Source: an uncultured archaeon (GTDB taxonomy: Archaea > Halobacteriota > Methanosarcinia > Methanosarcinales > Methanoperedenaceae). Taken from it: a DNA stretch of 58,349 nt. The position numbers and the translations under genes were made by a program. Below, piece after piece: positions 27,550 to 27,807 of the stretch; the stretch's first letter is position 1, and each line of letters begins with the position of its first letter. The notes beneath the pieces were generated by a model. It saw only the letters and a list, made by a program, of their open reading frames with translations, made no database searches and was not told the DNA's origin. The stretch covers positions 1 through 58,349 of the forward strand of contig CABMCA010000016.1 in NCBI GenBank assembly GCA_902384525.1, written 5' to 3'.

Positions 27550-27573
27550 TATAAATATCATAATGCTTATGAT
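27550..27573 (+). promoter_or_regulatory. TATA box and palindrome of hairpin RNA A
   Basis: TATAAATA at 27550-27557 overlaps by one base a perfect inverted repeat (ATCATAA, spacer TGC, TTATGAT; 27557-27573). The box centre is about 28 bases before the first base of the hairpin. A protein on the palindrome would cover the start site. The same arrangement recurs at unit B. Confidence 0.55.
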
Positions 27574-27580
27574 TATATAT

Positions 27581-27646
27581 GACGAGCGGTCGGATTTTTT
27601 TAAATAACCCACCACTCCCACTCCCCGTCCGCTCGTCAATGTTTTT
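27581..27646 (+). ncRNA. Putative small RNA A (stem-loop with C-rich loop)
   Basis: A self-complementary unit of about 57 bases: GACGAGCGG at the start pairs perfectly with CCGCTCGTC at 27629-27637, and CGG/CCG can extend the stem after one mismatch. The loop holds a T-run and a C-rich stretch (ACCCACCACTCCCACTCCCC). A run of five T residues follows at 27642-27646. It shares loop sequence and layout with unit B, while the stem sequences differ in a way that keeps pairing. Function unknown; C-rich loops can pair with Shine-Dalgarno sequences of target messages. Confidence 0.55.
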
Positions 27647-27711
27647 CATATATTTTCCCAAAATATAGGATCAGGATAATCATATTATTATCATTACTTG
27701 TGAAGAAAAGA

Positions 27712-27731
27712 TTAAATATGATACGTATCAT
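27712..27731 (+). promoter_or_regulatory. TATA box and palindrome of hairpin RNA B
   Basis: TTAAATAT at 27712-27719 overlaps a perfect 14-base palindrome ATGATACGTATCAT (27718-27731). The box centre is about 29 bases before the hairpin of unit B, the same distance as in unit A. Confidence 0.55.
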
Positions 27732-27743
27732 AGTTATGCATTA

Positions 27744-27807
27744 CGTGCGGTCGGATTTTTTTAATAACCTACCACCCCATACCTCTGACCGCCCGTTTAT
27801 GTTTTTT
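27744..27807 (+). ncRNA. Putative small RNA B (stem-loop with C-rich loop)
   Basis: Stem CGTGCGGTCGGA (27744-27755) pairs with TCTGACCGCCCG (27784-27795) with one mismatch and one G-T wobble. The loop TTTTTTAATAACCTACCACC and following CCATACC is closely similar to that of unit A. Six T residues at 27802-27807 follow, as in a terminator. It ends just before the convergent PDO gene. Together with unit A it forms a tandem pair, each with promoter, palindrome, hairpin and T-run. Confidence 0.55.

Follow-up and report, generated by a model that had tools for sequence, protein, structure and literature searches.

The window (i.e., the whole stretch of 58,349 nucleotides that was analyzed) derives from the 2.92-Mb genome of a Candidatus Methanoperedens archaeon and contains two hairpin units arranged as a tandem direct repeat, both on the plus strand (27580 to 27638 and 27741 to 27798). 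The pair is flanked on one side by hdrC and hdrB (TIGR03290 and TIGR03288) and on the other by the genes for a protein disulfide oxidoreductase (TIGR02187) and an ArsR-type regulator. This setting, to which an earlier sequence-only reading had drawn attention, is true of the window but is no feature of the family described below, in which the copies of the same subgroup in related genomes adjoin rtcA-like, trkA-like, and other genes. The component parts listed in that reading for both units (i.e., TATA boxes, palindromes, stems, and T-runs within the loop and 3' of the stem) were all found, and each unit presents them in the order TATA box, A/T-rich operator-like element, hairpin, and T-run. 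The start-to-start distance is 160 to 161 bases, not 163 as had been stated.

In unit 1, the TATA box (TATAAATA; 27550 to 27557) has a BRE-like AAAG immediately on its 5' side and occupies a position that is fixed across the family. It is followed by an operator-like (NAT)n array (ATCATAATGCTTATGATTAT; 27557 to 27576) that includes the palindrome ATCATAA-TGC-TTATGAT (27557 to 27573). The hairpin (27580 to 27638) is supported by its fold and by two covariance models (R1, 75.4 bits; the broader R2, 54.2 bits). Its stem arms, as assigned from the fold, span 27580 to 27593 (5') and 27625 to 27638 (3'), and its loop holds a U-run (27595 to 27601) and the conserved C-rich sequence AACCCACCACTCCCACTCCCC (27606 to 27626). 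The T-run 3' of the stem (27642 to 27646), where T is enriched throughout the family, is a likely archaeal termination signal. In unit 2, also on the plus strand, the TATA box (TTAAATAT; 27712 to 27719) was assigned from its sequence and family position; the palindrome that follows (ATGATACGTATCAT; 27718 to 27731) matches the (NAT)n array weakly (4/6) and is retained as ATGATACGTATYAT or ATGATAAGTATCAT at three loci of related genomes (L002, L003, and L004). The second hairpin (27741 to 27798; R1, 61.7 bits; R2, 39.1 bits) has stem arms at 27741 to 27755 and 27784 to 27798, a U-run at 27756 to 27762, a C-rich loop that has diverged from the family consensus (AACCTACCACCCCATACCTC; 27766 to 27785), and a T-run at 27802 to 27807, again within the region of family-wide T enrichment. 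Both units fold stably as plus-strand RNA (z = -5.8 for unit 1 and -4.3 for unit 2), with none of 200 shuffled sequences folding as well, and an R2 scan of the window returned these two units and no other match up to E = 10.

A BLAST comparison with 60 relatives revealed clear homologs (E < 1e-7); these came from the majority of the remaining genomes of the genus and from one genome of a sister genus. The homologous DNA has an identical layout, in which the stems drift and the loop is almost unchanged. The covariance-model search of related genomes that had been suggested as a check gave at least one R1 match for each of the 34 Methanoperedenaceae genomes examined, and R2 matched 174 of the 186 genomes of the order and 220 of the 238 genomes of the class Methanosarcinia. 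R2 does not match everywhere, since two genera (g22 and g23) and one family (f6) within the class were negative. The copy number is 2 to 21 per genome in the Methanoperedenaceae and mostly 1 to 6 elsewhere; the window genome contains approximately 15 convincingly scoring members, among them another tandem group on contig C119. Thus, the units proposed to be a pair of small RNAs do appear to be RNA units, but they represent one tandem locus within a class-wide, multicopy family rather than merely a pair. For neither the window units nor the homologous hairpins of Methanosarcina and other genomes did any Rfam 15 model score above its gathering threshold, a search at a permissive threshold gave chance matches only, and our literature search found no report on small RNAs of Methanoperedens. 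This family of hairpin small RNAs, present in nearly all methanogenic and methanotrophic archaea of one class, is apparently not catalogued, and one of its members may already be known as Methanosarcina mazei sRNA41. Among viral contigs, the family pattern occurred twice (L061 and L062), and the L061 occurrence is a G+C-rich chance match.

Conservation of the structure is evident at the level of the family. The earlier argument from stems that vary in sequence yet remain paired carries little weight within the window pair, the 5' arms of which are nearly identical, but it holds strongly family-wide: among 72 distinct members, 11 of the 13 stem pairs have compensatory changes altering both sides, and double-change cells number 119, compared with 42.6 in shuffles. 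The covariation of the stem is 0.387 (shuffled, 0.201). On the sense strand, the stem core (nine pairs) includes 29 G-T and no A-C combinations, an asymmetry that the smaller seed alignment (A2) does not exhibit by itself (3 versus 3). The occurrence of G-T without A-C indicates that selection for pairing acts on the plus-strand RNA. The R1 score in the window is likewise strand asymmetric (75.4 versus 24.5 bits). Of 162 members, 129 have a TATA box that begins between positions -34 and -28 relative to the stem (11.5 +- 3.5 in shuffled sequences). Among 51 members from outside the Methanoperedenaceae, none of which was used in model building, 45 have the box between -37 and -27 (shuffled, 7.6 +- 2.6). 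T is enriched immediately 3' of the stem across the family. From the TATA spacing and the 3' T enrichment, transcripts are predicted to begin no more than a few bases from the stem and to end just past it. The family has two of the features expected of an independent archaeal sRNA gene, i.e., its own TATA promoter at the correct distance and a structure under selection. The central claim of the sequence-only reading, that these are untranslated hairpin RNAs which are regulated, are transcribed from their own promoters, and have a C-rich loop that is conserved, is supported by the promoter positions, the covariation, and the conservation in relatives, and we regard the units with high confidence as members of a regulated RNA gene family.

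The loop of the family consists of a U-run followed by CUAACCCCCACUCCCC and hardly varies, while the stems do. Of 178 distinct members, 156 have a run of at least five T residues and 147 have the loop word CCACTCCC. In single-strand folds, the C-rich part of the loop is unpaired. Since the paralogs share this loop, they probably also share the same partner. In Methanosarcina members, the C-rich module is repeated two or more times per loop; some loops in this genus (L256, L258, and L260) are much longer and contain three or more CCCC blocks, the stretch at L260 being free of an open reading frame of 100 amino acids. Hairpins that combine the same type of loop with other stems were also observed. 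At L005 and L006, a second hairpin in divergent orientation lies on the minus strand approximately 150 bp from the main (NAT)n-type unit; its stem is different (GTGACAGGT or GTGGCAGGT), while its loop is unchanged. Another hairpin (L074; G000:C96:13836-13897; E = 0.03), with an unrelated stem (AGGACAGCAGCATG) and a loop of the same type (a T-run followed by ACCACCACCATTCC), is situated directly downstream of a gene for a small winged-helix regulator and is possibly a distant family member.

The upstream elements differ among the family members. The inverted repeat TTCGN8CGAA lies 5' of 31 of 163 units, yet the 492 kb of DNA around the units contain it just 38 times. In one subgroup, the element is TTCGTATATATACGAA, located 10 bp behind the TATA center, which matches exactly the box reported for the regulator MsvR (TTCGTAN4TACGAA; PMC3729527). 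MsvR is encoded in the window genome (258 bits; cutoff, 220), and an MsvR-type motif is located 49 bp upstream of the msvR start, as it is in other Methanoperedens genomes. The gene (L348:1935-2675; minus strand of G000:C11) is preceded by the inverted repeat TTCGTACATAAACGAA, and this arrangement recurs elsewhere in the family, in several genomes and often alongside a predicted methyltransferase gene. In two subgroups (b and c), to which the window pair does not belong, the box lies between TATA and start in genomes that encode MsvR. On the basis of these sequence matches, MsvR probably controls one subgroup. The M. acetivorans MsvR is reported to bind DNA only in the reduced state (PMC3729527), so oxidation would be expected to induce RNAs with an MsvR box. 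Subgroup b has the looser inverted repeat TTCGN8CGAA, positioned at the predicted start, and this repeat could alternatively be a 5' hairpin of the RNA. At L066 and approximately 20 orthologs of this subgroup (stem, AGATAAGCGGG), a second small hairpin (GTTCG..CGAAC) precedes the main stem at the predicted 5' end and may be either a structural part of the RNA or a start-site operator for MsvR. About a dozen genomes have the main hairpin of subgroup b with an identical sequence. On contig C119, locus L220 (G000:C119:15469-15809) contains three tandem members, each preceded by an MsvR-type box, TTCGN8CGAA.

The window pair belongs to subgroup a, in which the promoters carry a 3-bp periodic (NAT)n array: at least five of six AT steps are present in 24 of 28 promoters (expected, 2.2). 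Unit 1 has 5/6 steps, while unit 2 has only 4/6. The palindromes previously read as operators stand as operator candidates in the form of this array; their dyads in subgroup a did not exceed dinucleotide shuffles, and dyad symmetry was rejected as proof of an operator. The Fur box is GATAATGATAATCATTATC, which (NAT)6 arrays resemble, and the subgroup a promoters carry such Fur-box-like (NAT)6 sites. Fur itself was discarded as the regulator, given that searches for the protein gave weak winged-helix matches only (about 20 to 30 bits; absent from half of the genomes) and that the other (NAT)6 sites do not precede metal genes. In G000, (NAT)6 sites number 40, versus 5 for the reversed pattern. 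None of the 24 site clusters that were examined falls within a predicted gene of at least 100 amino acids, and the sites front varied genes (multiheme cytochrome-like, flavodoxin-like, and glycosyltransferase). They possibly form the regulon of one further factor.

One alternative is that the units are a DNA element (a mobile repeat, a MITE, or a replication or recombination hairpin) and no RNA gene, and multiple scattered copies, changing neighborhoods, and frequent tandem arrangement are compatible with such an element. We nevertheless hold this to be very improbable, because the TATA spacing is fixed, G-T wobbles are present and A-C pairs absent, the model score is asymmetric by strand, and the diverging stems still pair; terminal repeats and a transposase were not seen. 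The constant promoter distance, inside and outside the Methanoperedenaceae, also sets aside scattered repeats that lack promoters. For the RNAs themselves, the sequence-only reading had suggested binding of the C-rich loop to Shine-Dalgarno sequences. As a general activity, this would make them anti-Shine-Dalgarno RNAs that broadly decrease translation by mimicking the 16S 3' end; the loop is exposed, and its CUCC is complementary to GGAG, a sequence enriched ahead of start sites. However, across 348 start regions of the window genome, strong pairing with the real loop was found in 5.7%, compared with 5.0 +- 1.3% for composition-matched shuffled loops, whereas the 16S anti-Shine-Dalgarno sequence, used as a positive control, gave 5.2% versus 2.3 +- 0.8% for its shuffles. 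Since the loop performs like its shuffles while the control works, a general anti-Shine-Dalgarno role is not supported, and we consider it improbable. The suggested target prediction with the loop found no near-perfect complement before any gene of the window genome. Two exact additional complements were rejected as targets, one located within a coding frame (L357) and the other in an apparent degenerate family copy on the opposite strand (L358). Action on a few specific mRNA targets is possible, as with M. mazei sRNA154 and sRNA41.

The main rival, ranked next after mRNA pairing, is that the U-run and the C-rich loop form a recognition site for an RNA-binding protein (Lsm/SmAP or a C-rich binder), which the RNAs would sequester or guide as CsrB does with CsrA. 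The loop word is nearly invariant class-wide despite the drifting stems, to an extent that exceeds the needs of simple Shine-Dalgarno pairing; the C-rich module is repeated within Methanosarcina loops; and pairing by the loop is not above that of shuffled loops. A single motif per hairpin, as found in most species, is a poor design for a sponge, however, and those sRNAs of the class that have been studied experimentally target ribosome binding sites. We therefore view protein binding as a serious but less than likely explanation. Base pairing with mRNA, as the effector step, comes close to an even prospect.

On balance, we favor, with some reservation, free-standing regulated hairpin RNAs that carry different operators; most likely, they are regulated sRNAs that act in trans on a small number of specific mRNAs. 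Each unit would be its own gene for a regulatory RNA of about 55 to 75 nucleotides, formed as one long hairpin. Transcription is predicted to be driven by an archaeal TATA promoter, to begin at most a few bases from the 5' end of the stem, and to stop at the T-rich stretch 3' of the stem. The paralogs would respond to different operators, one subgroup to the redox repressor MsvR and that of the window to a factor reading (NAT)n arrays. The exposed C-rich loop would pair with short G-rich segments close to the start of the target mRNAs, and different stresses would thereby converge on one posttranscriptional output. RNA structure, promoters, family membership, and MsvR boxes were read from sequence, and we infer the trans action, the mRNA pairing, and the inducing signals. 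The copies look like a multi-input layer of RNA control placed under different genetic switches, including a known oxygen/redox switch. More speculatively, and in our estimation rather unlikely as a whole, they may form a class-wide network in which a near-invariant loop on up to approximately 20 paralogs per genome, each under a different transcription factor (MsvR for redox, a (NAT)n-reading factor, and others), addresses a single conserved partner, which may be an RNA-binding protein dedicated to these RNAs and titrated by them.

To our knowledge, a family, a regulator, or a target has been assigned to only a few archaeal sRNAs. A large family common to methanogens and anaerobic methanotrophs, with a regulatory element at every promoter and a shared effector loop, would link redox sensing by MsvR in a concrete way to control at the RNA level in strict anaerobes. 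It is testable in genetically tractable Methanosarcina and would be an addition to Rfam.

Among known systems, CsrB and RsmZ resemble the present family in having a conserved motif in hairpin loops, which is repeated in some members (Methanosarcina), but here the motif is C-rich instead of GGA and mostly occurs once per RNA. We know of no CsrA-type partner for the family. Published accounts of M. mazei sRNA154 and sRNA41 describe both as masking the ribosome binding sites of mRNAs encoded in trans (PMC5867862, PMC6560208, PMC11456600). Both are intergenic sRNAs from the same order as the present family; sRNA154, however, is described as having two loops and encoding a small protein, while the members described here are single untranslated hairpins. 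The cold-box sRNAs of Methanolobus psychrophilus, conserved multicopy sRNAs of the same order, comprise nine cold-induced copies that share an upstream cold box (PMC5378194). They are set apart by this description and by the finding of only two model matches in the genome taken as M. psychrophilus (G133). The MsvR regulon is matched by the box in the promoters, by the presence of MsvR, and by the motif upstream of msvR; small-RNA targets are not mentioned in the portion of the published account consulted (PMC3729527), and the MsvR promoters reported here are candidate sites. The type is already known in bacteria, where multicopy sRNAs with a C-rich loop include LhrC. Listeria LhrC1-5 are reported to comprise several paralogs per genome, all with a CU-rich single-stranded motif, and to be stress induced by transcription factors (PMC4132741, PMC5880928). 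The present family likewise has several copies with a common C/CU-rich single-stranded motif and would work like LhrC, with no claim of homology. It differs in being archaeal, in its class-wide age, and in the different operators of its copies, as opposed to one shared regulator. As far as the literature was searched, the novelty lies in an archaeal class-wide family, in operators that differ between paralogs, and in the link to MsvR.
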